DNA from: Medicago truncatula
Taxonomy: Eukaryota > Streptophyta > Magnoliopsida > Fabales > Fabaceae
NCBI RefSeq assembly: GCF_003473485.1
Contig: NC_053044.1
Coordinates: forward strand, 50,136,091 to 50,200,090
Length of the DNA: 64,000 bases
Direction: 5' to 3'
In this document: positions 9,697 to 33,097 of the stretch, one piece after another
How the letters are laid out: every line of letters starts with the position of its first letter
Numbering within the stretch: the first letter of the stretch is position 1
Notes under the pieces: model-generated
Seen by the model: only the letters and a program-made list of their open reading frames with translations
The model's database searches: none
What the model was told of the DNA's origin: nothing
Program-made: the position numbers and the translations under genes

Positions 9697-10696
9697 GGTT
9701 AAAATGCACTTTTGGCCCCCTAAGTTTGGCTCCGTAGTAATTTTTGGCCCCTATTAAAAAAAAAAACTTTCCTGCCCCCCAACTTCACCCCTGTTTGCAA
9801 CTCAGTAACCCCCTCCTATTTTAACCCGGTCAAAGCTTAGGTGACCATTTGATGGATGCCATGTGGCATTTAATGAATTAAAAATAAAACAAAAAATCAA
9901 AAAGAATTAAAAAAAGAAATTGGCACGTGAGACAACAAAGAAAACACATAATGGAAAATCAAATTGTCATCATCATCTATATGTGTACATCATCATCCAT
10001 AACCTACAAAGAATCTTCTAATTTCTTCTTCAATGTTAATTCTTTATTTCTTATAAACAAATTCCTTAAAATCAAACCCATATTTTCAAAAAAAATATTC
10101 ACCTTCATCTTCTTCAAACTTCGTCAAACTTCAATTTCATTACATCTTGATCTTGTTCCAAAACACCATTGCACAACACAACAATACAACAACATCATCA
10201 TCTTCTTCACAAATCCTTACCCCAGAAAACTGAAAAACCCAACGACACCAATTCACGTCCACCACCAGATCACCGAATCTCGCATCAACACCCCTCTTAT
10301 TCCATCAAACATAGCAAATTTAGCCTCTAGATTAAGGAATTGATTGAATAAAATGGTGTTGGATTTTCTGAATCTTTCATTTAAAAATTTTAGAACTAGA
10401 AAAAAAGGCTTTTTTAAATCTTTTTTCAATTGTTTTCTTATTGTTTTTAAAACGAGACCAAAAATTGAAAGTGGGTCTCTTGGGAAACCCTCATCAAGGT
10501 ACGATTCTACTAGTGTTCCATAACATGTTAAAAACCAAAAGTTTTTGTTTTCAGTATATTTTTTTTCTTTAGATCTTTTTTTTTTTTAGTAGATTGTACC
10601 TTTGTGTTGCAAAAGGAGGGCTGAAAAGTTATTTTTTTAATAGGGGACTAAAATTGCTACGGAGCTAAATTTAGGGGCTAAAAGTGCATTTTAGCC
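9697..10696. mobile_element. 1.0-kb Mutator-like TIR element
   Basis: Perfect 9-bp duplication TAGAAAAAA (9688-9696 and 10697-10705). The ends are GGTTAAAATGCACTTTTGG and GGCTAAAATGCACTTTTAG, inverted. The match continues for about 80 bp through GCTCCGTAG and CCCCTATTAAAAAAA. The interior is AT-rich and low in complexity, with one 138-codon frame (9927-10343) of biased composition that I do not regard as a gene. Non-autonomous. Confidence 0.92.
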
Positions 10697-13184: not shown

Positions 13185-13353
13185 AATACATCAACCTTGT
13201 TTTGTTGATAATATTGGGAAGTGAAAAAGTATTATACTTTTGTGGAATTATGTATAATATCGTCACTTTCATTAGTTACATACAGGTGTATATTATTACA
13301 TATAAAAGCACGACATCCATGACGTGTAGGACGTGTAGGGTGAATTAAATCTT

Positions 13354-14335: not shown

Positions 14336-14429
14336 CACTATCACCTAACTAAAAAAAATAGTGATAAAGTAAGTTGAGAATTGCTGTTCCCACATCTTGT
14401 TTGGCTGTGCCACACGAGTAAAATACGAA

Positions 14430-14575
14430 AATGCCCTTCGGCAGTTTGCTACCGAAGTTTTTAGGCAACCGGCGGCAGTTAACTGCCGAGGAAAACCTCG
14501 GTAGTTAACTGCCGAGGAAATCTGAACTTAAACAATTTCGGTAGTAAACTGCCGAGGAAATCTTCATCTATAAAA
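14430..14575. repeat. Subterminal palindrome cluster, left end
   Basis: At least three variants of CGGCAGTTAACTGCCGAGG, itself nearly self-complementary, lie in the left TIR of the PMD element. The mirrored cluster is at 18750-18835. Such subterminal repeats often serve as transposase binding sites in plant TIR elements; that role is inferred. Confidence 0.8.
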
Positions 14576-15857
14576 CATTTCAAAATCATTCTAACAGTAT
14601 TTTTACACAAAGTTTTAAAATTCATCATAACAGTTCAAATAACAAATAAATATTGGTGCAAATGCACAACTTAATTAAACCAACATTTTTGTACATTAAA
14701 CAAAGTAAAAAAAGCCCATGAAATTAAAAATAATGTCATCAAAGTAGAAATATACAAATATACATAACTCAATGTCATCAAAAGACTAAAGCTAAAAAAT
14801 AAGTCCTAAAAAAGGAAAATAGTACTACTGGTCCTGGTCTTGATCCTGATGATGGTGCCTCCTCCTCGGCCTCTGGGCTCTCCTCCTGGTCAAAATCGGC
14901 GCGATCTGCTCCCTCATATGGGTCATGGCCTCATACCACTGCTGAGGGGTCATGCTCATGACCTCCTCCTGGCCTAACTGCGCATCAGCGTATGCAATAG
15001 CGCCACTAACCATGTCATAGGTGTCAGGCGAGCTTCTCGCCTCATACCGCTGCCACTGCTCTGCAATGATCTGCTCTTCATTTGCAGGCCTCGGAAGATC
15101 TCCTGGAATAGGTGGCAAGATCTGAGGGTGAGACACCCTAGTGTACCACAGGACATAGCCATCCGCCACCCGCCATGTATCCTCTCCTGCCTGCTCACCC
15201 CGAGCGTCCGTCTTAAGCGTGTGAGTGCGGAAGTCGACGAACATCTGCACAATGGAAGGCGGGGGGAGGTCCCTAACATCAGTCGGATGTCTGGGGATGG
15301 TCTGCACGTATCCGTACTGCCTCAAAACCCTCTCGGGCAAGTGACGGTACACCCTACGGACGCCGCACATAATCCATCCAGAATACCAGAAAACCTCCTC
15401 GAAGTCCTGGATCTCTCTGTGCTCCTCGTACGGCCTCCAGCATACATCATCTAACTGTATACGATCGAGCAGTGACCGATACGTGATCCCCTCCCCATGA
15501 CCCTTCTGGAGCTTCCACCTCGCTGCAACCGGATAGTTTTCCAGGTAGTCAGTGTTGAGATCAACACTGAAAAACCCTGAAAAATGCGCCAAAAACCATG
15601 CCTGCACAAACCAAACAAATAACATTTATAAATTATTACGCACGGAAAAATATAACAAAAAATTAAAAGTTCACAAAAAAATAAAGTTAACATAAATATA
15701 AAATTTCAGTTTTCTTACAGTGAGCAGTGTCACGCTCCCCCCAAGCGCTCTGTGTCCAGGCCTACATGCATCCGCCAACTCGCCGTATAGGTAGGCGAGG
15801 GTCATAGCTCCCCAGGAATAATTACGCATCCCTGCGTAGCCGTCCGCCATGGTCGTC

Positions 15858-16036
15858 GCCCTGATCACTTCAGATCTTTCTAAAGATGAATTTGGTACTG
15901 CTTTTTTTATTACAGCAACAACAATGTCACCAATATAAGCATACCGTCGATTACTAGCTCCTATGATTCGAATACACATCAATTCGCGGGCTCCGCTATT
16001 ATCGGCTACATTTAAATAGGTTTGAGGTTGAATCAT
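15858..16036 (-). pseudogene. rpl14: Plastid rpl14 5' fragment
   Basis: Starts [18 protein letters not shown] and continues through [16 protein letters not shown] to LERSEVIRA, the first half of chloroplast ribosomal protein uL14 (about 122 residues when complete). After ERSEVIRA the frame runs directly into the PMD sequence (TTMADGYAG). It is a truncated nuclear copy and is not expected to function. Confidence 0.92.
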
Positions 16037-16362
16037 ATCATTTTTTTCTATCTTTCAGTCAAAAAGTTGAAGTACCTTTTCTGAACTTTGAATTTAATGA
16101 AGTTAAAGAATTTTTTGTGCAACCTAGTCTATTCATATTTCACTTAGAGATTCCTAGATGGAACAAATGAAATTTTTTGTCTTTCTTGCATATCTTACAG
16201 AGAAGATATTCTTAGGTACTTTATTTCAAATCACGTGAGCAGTTATATTAGCATTACTAAGGAACATAACGAAATATCAGATGAAATAGAACTATTTTAG
16301 AAGGGATATAAGAAAATCTTTTGATTGTTTGTTGCTTTATATTTAGAAAATGAATGATCCGT

Positions 16363-16410
16363 ATTCTCTTTATATTCTATTCTCTATAGAGAATAGAATA
16401 TAAAGAGAAT
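16363..16410. repeat. Perfect 48-bp palindrome
   Basis: Arms of 22 bases (ATTCTCTTTATATTCTATTC plus TC) surround a TATA centre with no mismatches. It lies about 55 bp downstream of the ycf3 stop inside the plastid insert. It may be a plastid 3' mRNA stem-loop carried over with the DNA, or may mark the join of two plastid pieces. Confidence 0.9.
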
Positions 16411-16465
16411 TATAGAAAATATAGAATATTAGAATAAAAAAAAGAAAATAATAAACAGAGTGTTC

Positions 16466-16555
16466 TTATTCAAAACGCCCTGTGATCTTCAACCAATTCT
16501 GTGCTTCAATATAATTCCCAGGGGTAAGGGCTATAGCTTGTTTCCAATATTCAGC
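16466..16555 (-). pseudogene. ycf3: Plastid ycf3 (pafI) 3' end fragment
   Basis: Encodes [20 protein letters not shown] and then WLKITGRFE with a stop at 16466-16468: the C-terminal 29 residues of the TPR protein Ycf3, a photosystem I assembly factor. Only the end of the last exon is present, and its upstream edge abuts the PMD codons SNKR. Confidence 0.92.
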
Positions 16556-18749
16556 GCTTGTTGCTTCTATCGCCAAACAACAAGCATCCGACCAAGTACA
16601 TAAGGTAACACCGGACGCAGTATGTCCTGACCCTCTCCAGCTCCTCAACCTCCTCAGGATCCTCCGTACCCGCCAATACGTTGGCCCTACCAAGGTACGA
16701 GGTATAGAAGTCCCTCAGCCTGGGGTAGCTAATGTACCCACCGTACTCCTGGTTGCAGATCTTCTCAGCCTCATGTTGGGCCACACCAAGATACGTCATC
16801 AACAGTGCCGCTCCCTCATACTTGGGCATCTTCTTCCCATTGGCCAACATCCGCCCCTCAATAGGAAGATGCGTGAGACATGCGACATCATCCATTGTCA
16901 CAATCATTTCCCCCATCGGCATGTGGAAGGTGCTGGTCTCCGGATGCCACCTCTCGCATAAAGTAAGCAGCAGGGCATGAGGCACGGTAGAGTACCCCAA
17001 GTAGACCAAGTCATGTAGCCCGCTCTGCTGAAGCGCATCCCAAAACCAATTCTCATTCCCGTTAGGGCGTCTGAGAGTGAGAATCTTCGCCCCATGATTA
17101 ATCGGTTTAAGCACGAGGGTCTTACGAACCTGAAATAATAGAAAAAAAAAATATGGATATAATAATTAAACATAAAAACACATAACAATGTATAACAGTG
17201 TATATAATAATTAAAAACACATATAAACAAAACAATTAAACATAAAAAATAGAATTAAAAAAATAAACATATAACAGTGTATATAATAATTAAAACAAAC
17301 ACACATTTAAAGAAAATAATTAAACATAAAGAAAAAGAATTAAAAAAAAACACATATAGAGGTGGATATAATAATAAAAACAAACACACATTTAAAGAAA
17401 ATATTTTAACATAAAGAAAAACCAATTAAAAAAAACACATATAAAAGTGGATATAATAATTAAACAAACACACATTTAAATTAAAGAAAATATTTTAACA
17501 TAAAGAAAAAACAATTAAAAAAAATACACTTACATTATTTGAATTATACCAGAGTGACAACGCCACATGACCGGCATAAGAGTGGAGCAAGGACAAGTCA
17601 GCCGGTCCACCAGGAAAGGGAGGGTCCGTAGGTAACACCTCCGGTGCAGCAGCTGCTGCAATGTCATCCTCGTCTCCTGCATCCTGCTCATGTGGTATAT
17701 GATCCTGGTCATATCCACTGTCTGTCACATCATGATGTACATGATCCTGATAGTTCAGGTACTCCACCCCAGTCTGGTCAACAGGCTGTGACGGGTCAAC
17801 AACCTGTGACTCCTCAGACTGTGTAGCCTGAGAGCTTCCTGAGCCATCTCCCCTCCGACCTCTACCCCTCTTTGGGATGTGGGCAATCTGTCTCTCCCTG
17901 CGGTGGCTCTGAGTCATGGCACGCCTACCACCAATCATCCTCGATGGATCAATGGGGTCCTGATCGGCCATATCTACAAAAAAAAATAAAAAAAATTAAT
18001 ATCATTCAACCACTTTATCAACAAACAGTAAACCTAAACAAAACCTACACTTTCACATTCAACCTAAACATAACCTAAACATAACCGCTTTCATATTAAA
18101 CCACTTTACCAAAATAAAGACATTGATTGAACCTAAACATTATCATACACATTATCATTAACATTCAAACGCAAAAAATCAAATGCATTATCATACACAT
18201 TCAACCTAAACTAAACATAATTCAATATACACATTCAACCTAATTCAATATACACTTTTTCAATATGCATTCAACTTAATTCAACATACACGTTTTCGAA
18301 TTACAATCAAGATCGTATCCAATACCTAAACTAACTAAATAATCAATAAAATTGTCATTGACACATTTTATCAAACACTTTGTGTGCAAAGTATCAAACA
18401 TGCTCAAAATGTCTTATTTTGCCACCAATCAAAACCACATTATACCCTAACATCATTCAATCATCAATTAAACCAACTACATTCAATTATAAACTACATG
18501 CACTCATAAAAAATTCAATTCATACATTAACCCTAACCACATGAAAACTACCATTTTTTTAAAAAAAAAACCTACTCAAACTAACATTATGATTAAAAAT
18601 GAGTCAAGATACTTACTTGTGATTAAATAGAGATGATGCACTTGATTTTGCTGAAAAATCAAATTTGGAGAAGTTGGATGGTTTGGAAGAAGTTTTGAAG
18701 AATGAAGCAATACTGGAAAACTGAGTTTCTGCGTTCTGGTTATGTTCAG

Positions 18750-18835
18750 TTTTCCTCGGCAGTTAACTGCCGAGGAAATCCTCGGGAGTTTGCTGCCGCC
18801 GGTTCACTCAAAACTTCGGCAGTTAACTGCTGAAG
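18750..18835. repeat. Subterminal palindrome cluster, right end
   Basis: Carries CGGCAGTTAACTGCCGAGG and two diverged copies in the right TIR, mirroring 14430-14575. Confidence 0.8.
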
Positions 18836-19061
18836 GACATTTTGGTATTTTACTCGTGTGGCACAACCATACTATATGTGGGAACAGCAATTCTCAACTA
18901 AGTTTTGAGAGCTTAATATTTTCTGCTTTTGAGAATGAACGTTCGCTCAAATAATTAATTAAACGCAAACGCAATACAAATTCAGAATTGGCCCGACCTT
19001 AATTTGTGCGCTACTTTTGTTGTGAATTATTGATTGGAATCAAATAAAAAAAGGGTGAAGT

Positions 19062-22050
<2,989 letters not shown>

Positions 22051-22818
22051 TTTTTGCATTCCTGTCCGCAAGAAATTGTTAATTATAATTTTGTTTTAGT
22101 CAATTTTTTTTAATTTCCCCAAAATTTTCCAGAGGAATAGGATTACCTCACATAATGGATAAAGTTTCTACCTACATGTTTGACATTACAACCAGACAAG
22201 AAATGTGCAAGCATTTCAAATATTTTGATAGGGGTCCTTTCAAAATGCACATTGATTGATTCTCGCCAATCTATTTTAATATTCTTTGTCAATAATATAG
22301 TTAAATAATGAAAGTACCAGATGCTGCTTCATTCGGCATGATCATCACTATTTGTGCTGGCTTTTGTTTGCTTAATTCTAAAAAATGAATATCTTATTTA
22401 ATAATATTAGTAACATTTGTTGTTTCTTTGAGATGAAGTTATTAGGTGATTCCCATCATTCCAATCATGCCATGGTGGCTGTGATTTTACTATTCTATTC
22501 GTGTTTGAATTGCTTTGGTTCACTGGCTTGATAAAAACGCAAAAAAATAGCAATATTTTTGCTGGAAAAATGTAATAAATAGAGTGCAAGATGCAACAAA
22601 GTAAAGAAAGACCTATCTTTAATATATCCGTGTTTGAAAAATAACGGTAATTTAAAAGTATTAATGAGAAATGCCCCGTCAATGTAAATCTGCACGTTGA
22701 AGAATAGAATGTATAACCACCAATCATGAGAATGGATGTGCCTGACACGCTCGAAGCTCTGGTTGGGTTGATCATGGCCTATTACCTTTGTTGTTACCTT
22801 CGTTGTTGGTTACTTAAC
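22051..22818. other. Shared 3' region of two convergent genes
   Basis: About 770 bp separates the IDH stop codon from the stop codon of the convergent Cys-rich protein gene. It should hold both 3' UTRs and polyadenylation signals (several AATAAT/AATATA stretches), and transcript overlap is plausible. No other gene is seen. Confidence 0.5.
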
Positions 22819-25261
22819 TCATGAACTGACAACTCCAGAGACCCATGGAACAACCACTGGTGCTGATGGGTATGAATTTCGATATGATTCAGGATACTTG
22901 TCTTTAAAATTTAGTTGAGGTTTCTCATCCTGGATTCAGAAATATCAAAAGGTATTATGCAAAATACACATAAAAGAGCAAGCCAGTGAATCATCATCGT
23001 AAGGTAACTTACATATTTCAGCCAGCATTCCCGATGTTTGTGTTCATAGATGTCTGGAGAATGACACCCAAACTCATTTGGGCAATAAACCCAAATATTG
23101 CATTTCATTACACCTTCTTTGGCATGTCTTGCATGATCCAAGCAAGCCTGGCAGCAATCAGCTGCACTATCTTTGTGGTGAGTAAGACCCCATCTTACAG
23201 CAGTACCGTCATAATCGGTGTGATGTTCTGCATTGCACTCAGGTGGAAGGGGTCTGCCAGGAAGAATCTCCTCATCTGGATAGAATTAATACAGGGTAAA
23301 TGCAAAGAATAAATTTCTGCAACAAAAAAATATTTACATACTACTACTTCCAAGTTCCAGTTTCTATTGCACAATGTCTGCATATTTACAGGTTTCAGGA
23401 ATGTTTTTGAAGGAATGTAATGTTTCGAGAGAATTCTTAAATACTTTGAGGTGAATTCCATTGTTTGGATAATAATTTGAAGAATTTTCAAAATGATGGA
23501 AATTTATGAAGTATTTTTTTCAAGTTAAATTTAGAGAATTTCAAATGATACCTAAAAGTTAAGAATTTAATAATTCTTCAAATTTTGCATTTTGGTCATC
23601 AAATTTTCCAAAAATTTCAATTTGACCCCAATTAATTTCCAAAAAATTGCAAATTGACCCTTCAATTATAATTTGACCCCTCAAAATTTTTTAAAATTAA
23701 AACTGACCCCTAATTTTAATTTTCAGATTTGGCAAAAAAAATTAAAATTTATAAAAGTTGTCCAAAAATGATGACAATGAAATTTTTTATTACTCCGTCC
23801 AAATAAAAAGTATTGAAAAATGAAAGTAATTTAATTGAATAATTTAAATTGCTTAGAATTCTAAATTCTTCATTAAAGCACACTCTAAAGTTATTTTCGA
23901 CAAACGCAATTCAAACCGGGCATAACAAGGGGAAACTGATATTACCAAACTCCTCTGCACCCTCAGGTTTGTCATCATGTTCTTCATTAACTATTTGTGC
24001 TGGTATCCAAAGCCCAACCTCTTCACACAGCAGATCCCAATCAGACTCCAAAGCTCTTACTAGCAGACCTAGGAAGTTAAAATGCAAAGGCTAATTTCAA
24101 CTTCTAGAAGAGCATTATGTTTAAGCACATCACAATTAAACTATGATAGTCATAACAAAAAATCAATGTCCATACCAGCCTCTTCGCCAGGGATGGTTGA
24201 GTTAGAGGTCCCCTTCACATGAGCCAACTTAACCTCTTTAAGTTTTTCCTTGCGCCAACTTTCAACAACTTCTGTAATTTTCAAAACGTCGTATCATCCA
24301 AGTTACAACTACGAGTTATGTACACATATTTAATGAGGTAAAATGGATTATAAATGAGTATTTCAAGAGAGAGATGTGTCAGACAGATATCTAAATCAAT
24401 AGGAGAAAACAACAACTTAATTAAAAGCAATGCCTTATTTTTCACAAAACACTTGGCCAGTAATAGAAGGTGAGTTAATACAACTACACAACATGCAAGT
24501 TAGTGCAGTTAAATGATATTGGCTGCAAAAATCATAGATTATTAGTAAGGTGCATCAAACTGAAATTGTTATCACTGTAAAACCAATAGATGTAATAAAG
24601 AAAATCATATCCTAAACATTTAGCTTGTTGTATTAGTCATTAAGACATCAATGCAAACATAATCACCAAATGATTAACATGAATACCAGTACAATGTTGC
24701 AGTACTAGCACACACTCACCTCGTTCCTTAGCAATATTAATGCTACTTGAATTCAAGCTCCTTAGCGTATGCAAAATCTCATCAACTATTTTCTGCTTCA
24801 AATATCGCGGTAACTCAACCGCCAAATTCTCTCTCAAAAATTCCCCTTCTAAAACCTTCACCTAATTGCACAACGGTTTCACAACAAGCAAACAATCAAT
24901 AGATACAAATGTAAAGCGTTGTTAGATATTAATTAATCTGAGTTCTTACCAAATTAATTAACTCAACCGGTTTATATGCCATGCGGATATGCACCGATTC
25001 TTCCATTTTGTGAATCTGATCCGGGCTATAAGATACAACGACTGAAAACACAAGAAACAAAATCAATATGGAAACGGTTTATCTTGAAAGTATGAGAAGA
25101 TTGATGTTATTAAACTTACCATCACTGGAAACTTCTGCAAAGTGGATAGAAAGAGAAGAATAAAGAGAGCGAAAAACGAAGAGAGCAACAATGGCAATGT
25201 TGAAAAGGCAAAGAAAGAGAGTAGTGTTGTTGAAGGAACAAAGGTACTTCCCTCTGGCCAT
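22819..25261 (-). CDS. Uncharacterised membrane-anchored protein with C-terminal Cys-rich (PAN/apple-like) domain
   Basis: Assembled on the minus strand from seven exons: 25261-25120, 25041-24950, 24861-24720, 24271-24176, 24068-23946, 23275-23013 and 22929-22819. All have GT-AG borders and join in frame to 322 residues. An N-terminal hydrophobic segment (about 13-35) suggests a signal anchor. A middle region (50-200) is rich in charged residues. The C-terminal part (about 199-286) starts EEILPGRPLPPECNAEHH and has nine cysteines, including the CCQAC and CNIWVYCPNEFGC clusters and a final CWLKY. A short tail ends PWVSGVVSS. I recognise the Cys-rich block as conserved in plant proteins of unknown function with PAN/apple-like spacing. 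An extracellular or lumenal binding role is inference. An in-frame ATG at 25291 would add 10 residues. Confidence 0.8.
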
Positions 25262-25291
25262 GTCTCTCTCACTATCTTCATTCGACCACAC

Positions 25292-26954
25292 TCTCTCTTT
25301 TATTTAACTGCAAAAAGACACAACACCGAATTTTTATATGAGATTGAGCAATTCAAGCAACCTCAAAATTCAGTTAATGATCTCCTTTTGTTATTCTAAG
25401 AATATTGATTTTGCTTTGTTTTGGTCGCTGGTCACACTCAACTGAACTAACTGGGTTATTGTTTACTGACATAAATAAACATATTCCTTACTTTTTAAAA
25501 AACTAGTACATCCTACATAATAACAAAATCAAAGTCATAATTGAATTCTTGATATTGTTATTGTTTTTTATTTTTTGAAATATTGATATTGTTATTGTTT
25601 ATTAAACAAGTATATTGATTTTTCTAAGAAAGTTTCTTAATTACTACAAAAATTGAAGTGTTTTGTATAACTTTTTTCAATAGGTTAATAAGATACCATT
25701 TAGTGAAAACTTTCACTTATTGCAATTGTATACTTGATTGTAAAATTTCGTATTTATATTTTTGGTTTTATGTATTACAATAGCTTTCTTCTCATTTCTG
25801 TCAACAAAAAAAGAAGCTTTCTTTTATGTAAGACAATGATGGCCTTGTCATTTTTCATTTCCATCATTTACGTGCAAGTTGGTTGTGAGTCACTATGTGT
25901 TTTAGGAAACGGTGAAAAGGACATTTTATTATAAAAAGAAATTAAACTACCGATTTCGGTTTATGAAATTCACAATGAGAATAGTTTGGACAAATAAAAT
26001 ACATTTTTCTATTATTTTTGAAGTGAAAATTTGTCATAAAAAAAGTGAAAATATGAAACAATAATCTCATGTGCTTAATTTTGGTGTTACCATTATATAC
26101 TCTGTTAATTTAAAAATAAAAACTTTTAAAATAGTTTCTCTCTTTAACAATCTCTAGAGTTGCAACTTCATATCCAAGATGTTGAGTATAGAAGTTTTTA
26201 TTTGAGTCTTTTAATTATTAATTATGTGAAAGAGTCTAAGACAAAGAAGAGAGAATGAGGAAGAAAAAGGATGGAGTAAGATTGTTACCATGATTACAAG
26301 TTTTGAAATGAAACTATAGTGTATAATTTGGTGTTAATTTACTTGTTTGCCCCTAAAATTTCTTTAAAATGGTGTATTTTTGTTGATGTAAAGTGAATGT
26401 GAATTGGTTTTTTAGAAAAAAATAACTTTTATTTAGCTACACTACTTTGACCGATGAATTATCTTAATATTAAAAAATCGAATAATGAAGAGTGAGGTTG
26501 AATCCAGCAGAAGGAATTAGATTATCAAAACGTGACAAATCATATTTCAATTTGTATACAGATGTAGTATAATATGCTTCGAATAATATCAACTCAACTA
26601 AATGTGGGTGTTTACCCTCGTTGATGCGGATGTGCAGTAAACTTGAGTCCAATTGTCATCCTTACATTAATTGGTATAAAGAGAAGTGCTAACAACACTT
26701 ATTATTTAATTGAGTAAACATATGTGTGTCTTGCACTTTGAAAATGGGATAATAATATATTTGAATACAATATTTTTTGAAGAAACTAAACTAGTCCATC
26801 CAAATTGCCACGAGAAGAATTAAACATGAGACAGGTATATTCCAAGATCTCAAACCAATACAACAAACATAAGTGAGTTTATTTGAATACAATATTGAAA
26901 TAGGAGTATTGCCTTGTTTTTTGTTTACAAATAGCCTAGTGGTCATAGTTCATA
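25292..26954. other. Intergenic, no gene seen
   Basis: AT-rich region upstream of the minus-strand Cys-rich protein gene, so the first few hundred bases probably hold its promoter. Only short chance frames are present. Confidence 0.4.
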
Positions 26955-26963
26955 TATTTTTAA

Positions 26964-27464
26964 GGGTTAAATATGTTTTTGGTCCCTATAAATATGTCAA
27001 CTTTTCGGTTTAGTCCCTCTAAAATTTTCCTTCAACTTTTAGTCCTTATAAAATTTTCAATCACTACTTTTGGTCCCTATTTTTAATTTAATTTTTGTAT
27101 TTTTTTTAATTAAATTGCGCAGAAATATGTATAATATTCTAAAAAAAATTCCTACAAAAAATTAGAATTTTTTAACAAAACACAAATTAAATATGAATTT
27201 TTAACCGTAAAACATATAAAAATTCATATTAAATTCATGTTTTGTTAAAAAATTCTAAATTTTGTTTGGAGTGATTCTTGTAATATTTTGAATTTTCTGA
27301 AAATTTTTATTAAAAAATATAAATTCTACATATGAGTTTACTTTAAAAGAGGGACCAAAAGTGGAGATTGAAAATTTTATAGGGATTAAAAGTTGAAGGA
27401 AAATTTTAGAGGGACTAAAACAAAAAATTGACATATTTATAGGGACCAAAAACATATTTAACCC
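26964..27464. mobile_element. 501-bp foldback MITE, same family as 6413-6935
   Basis: Perfect 9-bp duplication TATTTTTAA (26955-26963, 27465-27473). The ends begin GGGTTAAATATGTTTTTGG, and the inverted arms match for about 130 bp through several TTTGGTCCCT / TTAGTCCCT motifs. The central part is AT-rich and non-coding. Confidence 0.93.
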
Positions 27465-27583
27465 TATTTTTAAATGTAAAATGTTGAGTGAGCGATTCGA
27501 ACATTTATTCTTACATAATACTATCCTCTCAACTGTCAGCTAAATCGTGCCCACGTGATAGAGTATTACCTTTTTTTTTTTTT

Positions 27584-27705
27584 GATCTAGTAGTCTAATG
27601 ACTAAAATTCACCTTATAAAGTGAATAAGTGGGGTGTCTGAGGTTCGAACTCTGACCCCCTATATATAATAATGCATTGTCCTACTAATTGAGCTATACT
27701 CACGA
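27584..27705 (-). repeat. tRNA-derived SINE fragment
   Basis: On the minus strand TAGCTCAATTAGTAGGAC (A-box-like), a TATATATAGGGGG spacer and GAGTTCGAACCTC (B-box-like) occur at tRNA-like spacing, followed by CACCCCACTTATTCAC. It is not a functional tRNA: the arms do not pair as a cloverleaf. Confidence 0.6.
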
Positions 27706-29332
27706 AACGAGTATTACCTTTTTTATGTAACCCTAAAAAACCTTTCGTGTGTAACTCAGAACTATATTCAATAACGTTGAATATGAGTTGAAGATAAATA
27801 TCTTCCCAAAATCAATCTTTCGTGCAACGTGCTAATTGAATGGACCAGGTATGGTCGAAGATAAGGACAACGGTAGTATTTATCTTCAAAGATAATCATT
27901 CTACGACACTCAAAAAATAAAATCAAACCAAAAAATAATAGAGTAAGGTTATTAGGTTAACAACATACGTTTTAACTCACATTTTTCCCACATATATTTT
28001 TTAATTGATTAAAATCTACCTGCACTAAATATGATTTCCTCGACTCAAATTAGATGTTTCTTTTAATATTTTTATTTATCTTAAACTATTTGTCTCTATG
28101 TCTAAGAAAAAATAAAATTGTAACTCCGTTATAAAGTTTTTTTAAATCAAATAATAAAGTTGTTTATTGCATCTCATAAAATATTATTTGCATGTAAAAC
28201 TCAATTTAGTTGTTATTATGTCCTTGAATGTTTAATGAATATTTACAATAATATATATATTATCGTTGACAATAAATCTATTTTTATAGCGAGTGAAGTG
28301 AGAATAAGTACTCCCTCCGTTCTATATTATAAGAAAAAAATCACACTTATTAAGAAAACGAAAACATAAGAATTTGGAGTATAATTTTTTGTGTTTTCTT
28401 TGAAAAAAGTTTTATAGGAAGATGTAAAAACAATATTCATTGGCTATTGGTTATGAAAAAATGAAAGAGAGAGAAATTTGAATGTAATTTGTATTTAATT
28501 TTATGAAAATAAACAAAAGTTTTTCTTGGAAAAGAGAGTTTTTTTTAAAGAAAAAGATTAAATAGGATAAAAGTTTGTTTTTTATGCTTATATTTTGAGA
28601 CAAAGAAAATGAAAAATGTTAACGAGTGTCTCCGTACACTTTTTAAGGACCATAAATAACAAGTATTTATAAAAATGCATGTAATCAATGCATTGGAAAT
28701 CAAAATGTTTGACTTTTTTAAAGAATAATTACTTATTTTATTTTAGTGTGATTAAAGAGTGCCCTGGGACAGTCGTTACCAAGATCCTACATTAAAATAT
28801 TATAGTGATTATATGATACACATTTAAGGACAAAAATGACTATTTAACTTGGAAACAATTTCAACGCACTGGAAAAAAGTTCCTCTTCAACACAGGAATC
28901 AATGAAGGACATGTTTGACTTTTCTCATGTGAATCCCAAAAAATACTGACTAGTTGTAGAAATGATAACAAACATAAGTAGAAAAGAGAAGATAAAATGC
29001 ACCAATTGAAGAAATATAAAAATAATGGAATTTGAGTTTCAATCTTGTGATGGCGTAGCGTGACCTCAAACATATCTTCAATTGACAAAATCTTAACCCA
29101 ACCATTAAGGTTGTTTCTTGATTTCTCCAACCTCGTTTTCGTGCTTCCTTAATAACAGGAATAAACAAAACAAAAACTCAAATTGCATGTACTACTTGAC
29201 CCTTCTTTTTCTTCCTCAATTCTTCAACCCTATACGATTTTCCACAAAAAATCGAATTTTGCAATTACCCATTTGAAAATTTATTAAATGTTCAGAGTTT
29301 TTTAGTTTTTGTAGTGTTGGAAAAGAAGGAAA
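27706..29332. other. Intergenic; partial Stowaway-like end and a possible MITE
   Basis: At 28309 a Stowaway end CTCCCTCCGTTCTA occurs; its partner near 28590-28607 (TATTTTGAGACAAAG) is badly decayed. At about 28619-28779 GTTAACGAGTGTC and GACAGTCGTTACC are inverted and may bound a small MITE. The last 400 bases probably contain the promoter and leader of the TMEM53-like gene. Confidence 0.4.
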
Positions 29333-32300
29333 ATGTGGGGGTTTGGTGGGAGATATTATTGGGGAAGAAGAAAGGTAGATTGTGAGAAAGCGAATGGGAT
29401 AGTTGTTGTGTTTGCATGGATGTCAAGTGAGGAAAAGCATTTGATGAGATATGTCGATCTATACTCTTCTCTTGGTTGGAATTCACTCATTTGCCATTCT
29501 CAATTTCTTAATATGTGAGTTTCTTAGCTTATGATTTTGATGTTGTTGATGATAATCTTTGTAGTTGTAATTGATAAGGGTTTGATTTAGGTGGATGGTG
29601 CTACTATAACTACCAATTTTACAAGACATGGATTTATATAATAGTAGTAGTTTAGTATTTATAAACTATTGTTGCATATATGATCAGTTTTATAAACTAT
29701 TTTATGCCAAATTGAAGCAAAAGAGAATTGGTGAATGGTCCTTCTCAGCTAAGGATTACTGGTATGTCTATTAGTACCAGACATTGTGGTTTACTGGTAG
29801 AATTGAAGATTGAAGCCTGATCACAAGGCAGGGGATGAATTACATCCAGGATAACTGTTTTATGTTTGCCGAAGGAGCCATCGTGTATTAGGTTCATTAA
29901 GTGTGATTGGTAAACTAGCAGTTGTGCCTTTGCCTTCTAGGTTTTTGAAATAGACAATACTATTTGTCTGCTTGTTGAAATAGCCACCCGAGGCATTTTC
30001 CATTACCAATTGCAAATTGATGTCTGTTTAATTTTAAGATGAGATGAGACCATCTATACTGTGGTTGCTTACATATCTCACTCTATACCGGATGATTAAG
30101 GATGGAAATGAGACACGCTAGGTTAGGCTAAGCCTTACCTTAAAACAGGGTTGGCTTATTTACTTAACTTAACATAAACCTTTTTAAAAGGCTTGATATA
30201 ATTTTTTGAAAAGTATCACTTGGCTTGAAAGCCTATTTAACAGCCTTCTTTATAGTAAGACCTTGCCTATCTCCAAATAGGGCATTAGGCCTATGTCTTT
30301 ATGTTGACTAATGGGATTAAACTTTTAAATAAGCTTACAAGATTAATTAGTTAATCATCAGTACAGTGATAAAAATATTATCATATTGTGCACATTCATT
30401 TAAATAGGGTGACTTGTCGATCCCGAAGGACATTTAAAAAAATTTAAAGCCTAACATTTTTAGCTAAATTTGCTTTTAAGAATTCCTTGGCCTAGCTTAT
30501 TTAGTAAATAAGCCAAGGCAAGTAAGGAATAATACAATTATACGTGTTTGTCATAGCCCCAATGAGCCACTTGGGTCATTCCCATCCCTATGGATATTGA
30601 ACTTAACATTTATATTATTTGTAGGTTCTTCCCTGATAAAGCCACAATTCCTGCAGTTGATATTCTAAATGAATTAGTTGAGGTATGTTTTACTGTAGTC
30701 CTTCCATTTTGTAGGTTAGTCAGTCTGAATTCAAGTCAGCTAAAAATATTTTTTTTCCTTGCATGCTAAGGTGGTCTATGATCTTGTGTGTTAAGATTTA
30801 CACTAAAATGAGTCTGGACGAGATAAGAAGCATATATATAACATCTATTCTTGTTTCATGTCCCGTTGATTAGAAAATGTCTAAAATAGTCTACAATGAA
30901 GTATTAGATTAGAGTCTAGCTAGTGCAGCTAGGCTAAGTCCCGTTGATTAGAAAATGTCTAAAATAGTCTACAATGAAGTATTAGATTAGAGTATAGCTA
31001 GTGCAGCTAGGCTAAGTAAGTGTAGATTAATTGGTAACTTCGGTACCCACCAAATTGCTCATATAGTTATTTCAGATACAAGTCAGTTTGTCCTGCACAG
31101 CTACTGTATAAAGCTGTATTTTATCTCAGTAAAAGTGTATTCATTTTACAATTCTTAATAAGTAATAACTCTTCTCTCTTGAATTATCTTTATCTCAGTG
31201 TTCTACAGTTTCTACGGTATCTTAAACTATATCATGAAATAAACTGACTGTATATTAAATTTAGTCTTCTGTCGAATTTTTAATCTTTTGTTAATTTAGT
31301 AAAAAATTGACTAGTATGAACAAGCTTACAAATACTGCTATTTGTTCAATATGCAGGTGCTGAAAATTAGGCGTTGTCCCATTGTCTTTGCATCTTTTTC
31401 TGGTGGTGCAAAAGCTTGTATGTTAAAGGTTCTTCAGGTATTTTAACTACAGGCTTCATTCTGTGCGTGTTTATTTACATTTTTATCATTGGCCTGTAAC
31501 AGCTCTTAATTCTGGCTGATTACATTGTTTTCCTTTGTTCCAGATAATTGGTGGGGAGTGTGAAACACATAATATGGTATGTTTTCGGGCATTAGCTGTT
31601 TATTTTGAGGATAATTGAGTTCATAGATTGCATTGTTAGTAAATTCATCGATGTCTTAAGTCTCAAAAACTTAAATGATCTACAGTCTCAAAAACAAGGT
31701 CTACAGTGTTGAATCCCCAACTTGCCATCCATGCTTCATAATTTAAATGATCTTTATTTCCCTTCACTTATTTTTTTGACCAAGTTCCTGTTCACACACA
31801 AAAAAAACTGTTCATGTTTAATCTTGTTATATTCTTCACTGCTTAATTTTTGTCATTGCACAGGATGATTATCAGCTTGTTAGAGACTGTATTTCTGGCT
31901 ACATTTATGATTCCAGTCCAGTTGATTTTACTAGTGACTTGGGTGTTCGATTTGTTCTACACCCATCTGTTTTAAAAGTGTCACATCCACCAAGATTTGC
32001 TTCATGGATTGCCAATGGCATAGCATCTGGTCTTGATTCCCTTTTCCTCAACAGATTTGAATCGCAGCGTGCAGATTATTGGCGAACACTTTACTCCACC
32101 ACTGTAAGCAGCTAAAAATACACAGTACATGACATATAACCAACAAATTACCTCCTTTTTTTTTTGAGGTATCTTGGCATATCTGCTTATTAGGTATCTT
32201 TTTGTTGCAGAGTATGCAGGTCCCGTATCTCATTTTTTGTTCAGAAAATGATGATCTTGCACCTTTTGAAGTTGTTTCAAATTTTTTCCATCGACTAAAA

Positions 32301-33097
32301 GACCTTGGTGGAGATGTCAAACTGGTAAAGTGGAGTTCCTCTCCTCATGTAGGTCAGTATCTTGACTAATTATGCATAATAGCGCATGGGTGAGATAATA
32401 AGATTCAGCTATGCCTATTAACTCGTGCCATAACTTTGTACTTTAGATTGACAGCATAAATTAGAGCTTCGTTTAAGTTAGTTTTCTTGGTAAATAGGAT
32501 TCATTGTGCAAAAAATGGTGTGCAACCATGGAAATTGTAATGAACGAATGTAATTTTTATGTCATGCATGTACAGAGGGAAAAATGTATTAAATTTTACT
32601 TGAATATGTTAGGTCATTTTCGTCATCATCCGGATGAATATGAAGCTGCTATCACCGAAATCCTTGGCAAGGCAGTTGCAATTTACCGCCACAAAAACAG
32701 AAGATTTGAAGACGAGAAACTGGGCATAGAGGGAACAAGAGATGAGATCACTGATCCGTTCTCTGAGCTGAGGAAAGCAGCAACAACCTCAACTAGTTTC
32801 CAGGGTTTTGCTGTTGCTCCGAGTGAGAATTTGTCTCCTAGTTCAATGGAGTATTATGATGATAAAGATGTTGGCTCCGTAGCAGATGAACGAAAAGGAA
32901 GTTTTATTCATCTTCCCACCCGTCCGAGCATCAACGCAAATGGGGTTCTTGGTCAAATATTATTCGATGTTTGTGTCCCCAAGACAGTCGAGGATTGGGA
33001 TGTTAGGTCGAATTCCAAAAATGCAGGACTATTATCTGGTACAAGGAGGCACGCTCCTTTCAATCCTATAAAATGCATCCGACGCTCAAGGTTGTAA
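29333..33097 (+). CDS. TMEM53/DUF829-like alpha/beta hydrolase-fold protein
   Basis: Seven exons: 29333-29514, 30625-30682, 31357-31437, 31544-31576, 31864-32103, 32211-32352 and 32613-33097, giving 406 residues in frame. The DUF829 family (transmembrane protein 53) has an alpha/beta hydrolase fold; here the possible triad is Ser95 in FASFSGGAK, Asp212/213 in SENDD, and a His in SSPHVGHF (244 or 247). The N-terminus IVVVFAWMSSEEKHLMRY is the family's first strand and loop. The last about 120 residues are Ser-rich and lie beyond the hydrolase fold, ending FNPIKCIRRSRL. The biochemical role in plants is not established. Intron 1 (1.1 kb) holds a possible MITE, and intron 2 an almost perfect 78-bp tandem duplication. 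The gene looks intact. Confidence 0.92.
30100..30589. mobile_element. Candidate TIR MITE in intron 1 of the TMEM53-like gene
   Basis: GGATGGAAATGAGACACG at the left and, inverted, GGGATGGGAATGACCC at the right suggest an hAT-type MITE of about 490 bp. The interior has repeated CTTAGCC/AAGCCT words. No exact target duplication was resolved. Confidence 0.5.
30860..31015. repeat. Tandem duplication, 2 x 78 bp, one mismatch
   Basis: The unit starting GTCCCGTTGATTAGAAAATG is repeated head to tail at 30860-30937 and 30938-31015. The only difference is GAGTCTAGC versus GAGTATAGC. It lies within intron 2 of the TMEM53-like gene and must be recent. Confidence 0.95.

Follow-up and report, generated by a model that had tools for sequence, protein, structure and literature searches.

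Two joined plastid fragments interrupt a PMD exon within a Mutator-like element of Medicago truncatula

Results

The host element and its PMD gene

The window, by which we mean the whole 64,000-nucleotide stretch of Medicago truncatula DNA that was analysed (C3:50136091-50200090), contains at 14376-18895 an element with inverted repeats of about 159 bp at its ends. The left repeat (14376-14534, plus strand) and the right repeat (18737-18895, minus strand) match at 136 of 159 positions and are flanked by 9-bp target-site duplications, AAGTAAGTT at 14367-14375 and AACTAAGTT at 18896-18904, which agree at 8 of 9 bases. Three other copies of the element have duplications of the same length agreeing at 9/9, 8/9 and 9/9 bases. 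With 9-bp duplications and long inverted repeats the host is a copy of a Mutator-like element. Contig C3 is the 58.9 Mb nuclear contig that carries the insert described below and belongs to assembly G000, which has 429,922,655 bases in 42 contigs.

The element encodes a PMD gene on its minus strand. A downstream PMD-encoding exon lies at 14825-15625 (PF10536, E 2.4e-15) and the upstream half of an interrupted PMD exon at 16557-17129, where the open reading frame 16551-17165 (minus) matches PF10536 with E 6.5e-17 and the 3' exon/intron limit was set by eye. An open frame with approximate limits at 17530-17971 (minus) is, from its position, probably the first coding exon of the gene; it has no Pfam match. 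Of the open frames of at least 60 codons, 15 were scanned with Pfam: two matched PMD, another matched plastid L14 and none matched a transposase, and the host copy is therefore taken to be non-autonomous. The PMD frame stops at a TGA (16551-16553, read 16553-16551 on the minus strand) which lies just within the insert and beside its joint with the exon, so that the host copy could give at most a truncated protein.

Of 1334 candidate copies in the genome 40 were scored, which makes the copy number a lower bound. Among these 40 the closest relatives are 98% identical and the best copies mostly start at query base 10 or 11. The PMD-bearing family is high-copy and looks recently active. Many copies match only from about query base 309 and so include the PMD part but lack the left end seen in the window, as if PMD modules might sit between different termini.

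Two plastid sources of the insert

The PMD exon is interrupted at 15858-16556 by DNA that, from a whole-genome search and a direct BLAST comparison, derives as two pieces from C42. This contig (117,500 bp) carries plastid genes including a complete rpl14 and was taken as the plastome of the assembly; it has 20,000 masked bases (17501-32500, 82501-85000 and 102501-105000) and both sources of the insert lie outside them. The first-pass annotation had described two plastid gene ends, both on the minus strand, breaking the PMD exon, and this holds, with PF10536 matched on both sides and the exon halves ending at SNKR and resuming just before MADGYAG.

The first piece (piece A, 15858-16074, minus strand) corresponds to C42:44852-44636 and consists of rpl14 codons 1-59 with 38 bp of upstream sequence. 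Over its 217 bp there is a single mismatch to C42, at 15908, which is synonymous in rpl14. Translation of window minus 16036-15858 gives residues 1-59 of plastid uL14 (PF00238, E 2.1e-19), with chloroplast L14 also found in the PDB (E 1e-28).

The second piece (piece B, 16074-16556, minus strand) corresponds to C42:105487-105987 and comprises the last 29 codons and stop of a reading frame that we take to be ycf3 followed by its downstream spacer, which includes a hairpin. The coding part, window minus 16555-16466, is identical in its 29 residues and stop to the end of the reading frame in C42. There are no substitutions over 483 aligned bases, and the piece is 18 bp shorter than its source, a difference made up by two gaps in the hairpin repeat, one of 7 bp and the other of 11 bp. 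The hairpin itself (16363-16410) is perfect with 24-bp arms, and a homologous repeat in C42 shows that it came with the plastid spacer. The 82-aa open reading frame that contains the ycf3 part (16466-16714, minus) had no informative match in Pfam or the PDB, and the plastid origin of piece B is based on the match to C42 and not on the gene name.

Matches of this kind, with one mismatch over 217 bp and no substitution over 483 bp, are far beyond chance. In C42 piece A lies on the minus strand and piece B on the plus strand, so that they are mutually inverted, and they are separated by 60,634 bp in one direction and 56,148 bp in the other. A blastn search of plasmids and three patterns run on viral contigs found no match. 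The rpl14 half, and not the ycf3 half, is matched at 85-86% by NZ_QPKJ02000013.1, a record titled Solirubrobacter sp. CPCC 204708 that holds plant plastid DNA with rpl14 and is a contaminant in a bacterial assembly.

Borders, empty site and joints

Ten copies of the element were fetched and all ten have an empty site, which reads GGTCGTC, then an identical stretch of 20 bases, AAATATATCAGCTCGATGCG, and then CTTGTTGC. All ten also have the PMD gene, which bears out the earlier suggestion that the insertion came after capture of PMD by the element. Comparison with these copies puts the left border of the insert at 15857/15858 and the right border within 16554-16556, where 3 bp are common to plastid and element. 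Among the 39 other scored copies the match ends at query base 1492 (window 15857) in 38 and at 1491 in one. Relative to the empty site the window copy has lost 17 of the 20 bases of AAATATATCAGCTCGATGCG and retains GCG at the right joint, a triplet that is present in the plastid DNA too.

No target duplication accompanies the plastid insert when compared with the empty-site copies. Microhomology amounts to 0 bp at the left joint, 1 bp at the inner joint where the pieces overlap by a single A (16074), and 3 bp on the right, in the GCG (16554-16556) common to the element and piece B; overlaps of 1 bp and 3 bp can arise by chance. The site shows the features expected of an insertion by end joining (NHEJ or MMEJ), with no target duplication, a small target deletion (17 bp) and microhomology within 0-7 bp. 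A whole-genome search with the insert listed 26 matches and, among the best candidates scored, the two pieces are joined only in the window. No paper on a ycf3-rpl14 joint was found within the open library that was searched.

Age of the insert

Two differences are private to the insert. At 15908 a G is present in C42 and in all four fetched nuclear copies that cover the site, and neither C42 nor any of five other aligned nuclear copies has the 11-bp hairpin deletion, which we read as a putative private slip within the repeat. With substitution rates between 6.5e-9 and 1.08e-8 per site and year, one change in 700 substitution-comparable bases corresponds to roughly 0.13-0.22 My, with 95% limits of 0.003-1.2 My, and since there is only this one change the insertion is suggested to be recent.

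Discussion

Origin of the insert

We consider it highly probable (about 0.92) that the insert is a chimeric nuclear plastid insert (NUPT) made by end joining of two plastid fragments into a broken PMD exon. A double-strand break would have occurred in the PMD exon of one Mutator-like copy, the broken ends would have lost 17 bp, and fragments carrying the 5' end of rpl14 and the 3' end of ycf3, from opposite sides of the plastome, would have been ligated together and used to bridge the gap. This may have taken place in a single event by NHEJ or polymerase-theta type joining, with the fragments probably arriving directly from plastid DNA. The loss of 17 bp without a duplication and the 0, 1 and 3 bp of microhomology argue for repair by end joining in which organelle DNA served as filler. 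The inverted orientation of the pieces in C42 means that a plain deletion of the plastome cannot yield the joint. Of the two origins put forward in the first-pass annotation, ligation of two fragments before or during nuclear insertion is borne out by two separate C42 matches that are far apart and inverted, and the other, a rearranged source plastome, lost its footing when alignment of the insert to C42 gave two matches and not one.

That second origin, in which rpl14 and ycf3 lay side by side in the source plastome and were copied as one fragment, would fit the fact that plastomes of the legume clade without the inverted repeat are prone to rearrangement. However in C42 a distance of 56-61 kb separates the pieces, which are mutually inverted, all five fetched nuclear rpl14-side copies are contiguous across C42:44636, and four of the five ycf3-side copies cross C42:105487 while the fifth (L017) starts at 105664, short of the site, and we regard a rearranged source as extremely improbable. 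The same can be said of a mitochondrial route in which the pieces were already joined in the mitochondrion and then transferred. Plant mitochondria do contain plastid DNA, yet C41, a 271,618-bp mitochondrial contig, gave no match at E 0.001 in the whole-genome search (26 matches listed, best candidates scored) and direct BLAST of the window against the first 100,000 bases of C41 found nothing. A passage of PMC7139807 gives the Medicago mitogenome as 271,618 bp, the same length as this contig. Plastid DNA is plentiful in such sequencing libraries, and plastid reads could have been built into the chromosome during assembly, but an artefact of this kind would have to account for the base and the 11-bp deletion that are private to the insert, for a 17-bp deletion at the site and the joining of two distant plastid sites, and for the matching target duplications that flank the surrounding element; it is very improbable.

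Copying of one or both pieces from older nuclear plastid inserts carries somewhat more weight than the other alternatives and is still unlikely. In its favour the 7-bp-shorter form of the hairpin repeat is common to the insert, C7, C3:12.19 Mb and C4:12.54 Mb, and the longer form is found in C42 and C4:12.67 Mb. A short repeat is however equally well explained as an older plastid allele, and neither the private base nor the 11-bp deletion occurs in any fetched nuclear copy; overall we judge copying from an older nuclear insert a less likely source of the short repeat than an older plastid allele. Successive insertion of the two pieces at one site is compatible with the data but would need two independent breaks at one point, and the pieces look equally young, with 1/217 and 0/483 substitutions; we think it improbable. 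Joining of two fragments at a single break is our preferred reading.

Relation to known insertions and elements

The insert is, in our reading, real, recent and ordinary, a chimeric NUPT of the complex or rearranged class. Near-identity to C42 over 217 and 483 bp is found inside nuclear contig C3, and the adjoining pieces come from non-adjacent plastid sites on opposite strands. The relevant part of PMC7037861 describes plastid segments end-joined on 1-7 bp of microhomology or bluntly as filler at breaks, as well as inserts mixed from several plastid segments that were ligated either beforehand or in the course of insertion, and in PMC3989485 a passage names the rearranged NUPT class and counts Medicago truncatula among the species surveyed. 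A section of PMC12181080 implicates both NHEJ and MMEJ in plants. The insert shares with rearranged NUPTs its mixed origin and orientation, 0-3 bp of microhomology, target deletion and lack of a target duplication, and it differs only by its site, the coding exon of a transposon-borne gene, while its structure falls within the class. The general view is unchanged, as complex plastid insertions by end joining are already established. What is offered here is a case resolved to the base, with both plastid sources, three joints and an empty site in ten relatives, and it is young. The insert may be used as a marker of plastid-to-nucleus transfer, scored as present or absent among accessions.

Capture of PMD-C by Mutator-like elements (MULEs) in grasses and Amborella is described in part of PMC5418596. 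With PMD-carrying Mutator-like elements the host shares target duplications of 9 bp, an internal PMD gene and terminal inverted repeats, here about 159 bp long. It differs from the elements treated in that part of PMC5418596, which are PMD-transposase fusions, in having PMD and no transposase match in the 15 frames scanned. The idea that such an element might spread plastid DNA found no support, with the joined pieces present only in the window among the 26 matches listed, for which the best candidates were scored. If the tagged cut-and-paste copy were still mobilised in trans, it would act as a vehicle and take its chimeric plastid insert to further places in the nuclear genome, a reading that we consider very improbable.

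Other plastid DNA was met both in the window and elsewhere in the genome. At window 10373-10602 there is a plastid-like stretch 94% identical to C42:15763-15999 over 237 columns, an older and separate NUPT, and a third plastid-like stretch at 13248-13353 is 88% identical to C42:82272-82371 over 106 columns. At C4:12541882-12739312 both pieces of the insert occur twice, with the ycf3-side copies 123,822 bp apart and the rpl14-side copies 136,281 bp apart, a spacing that points to plastid insertions of very great length, which may be tandem copies of almost the whole plastome.
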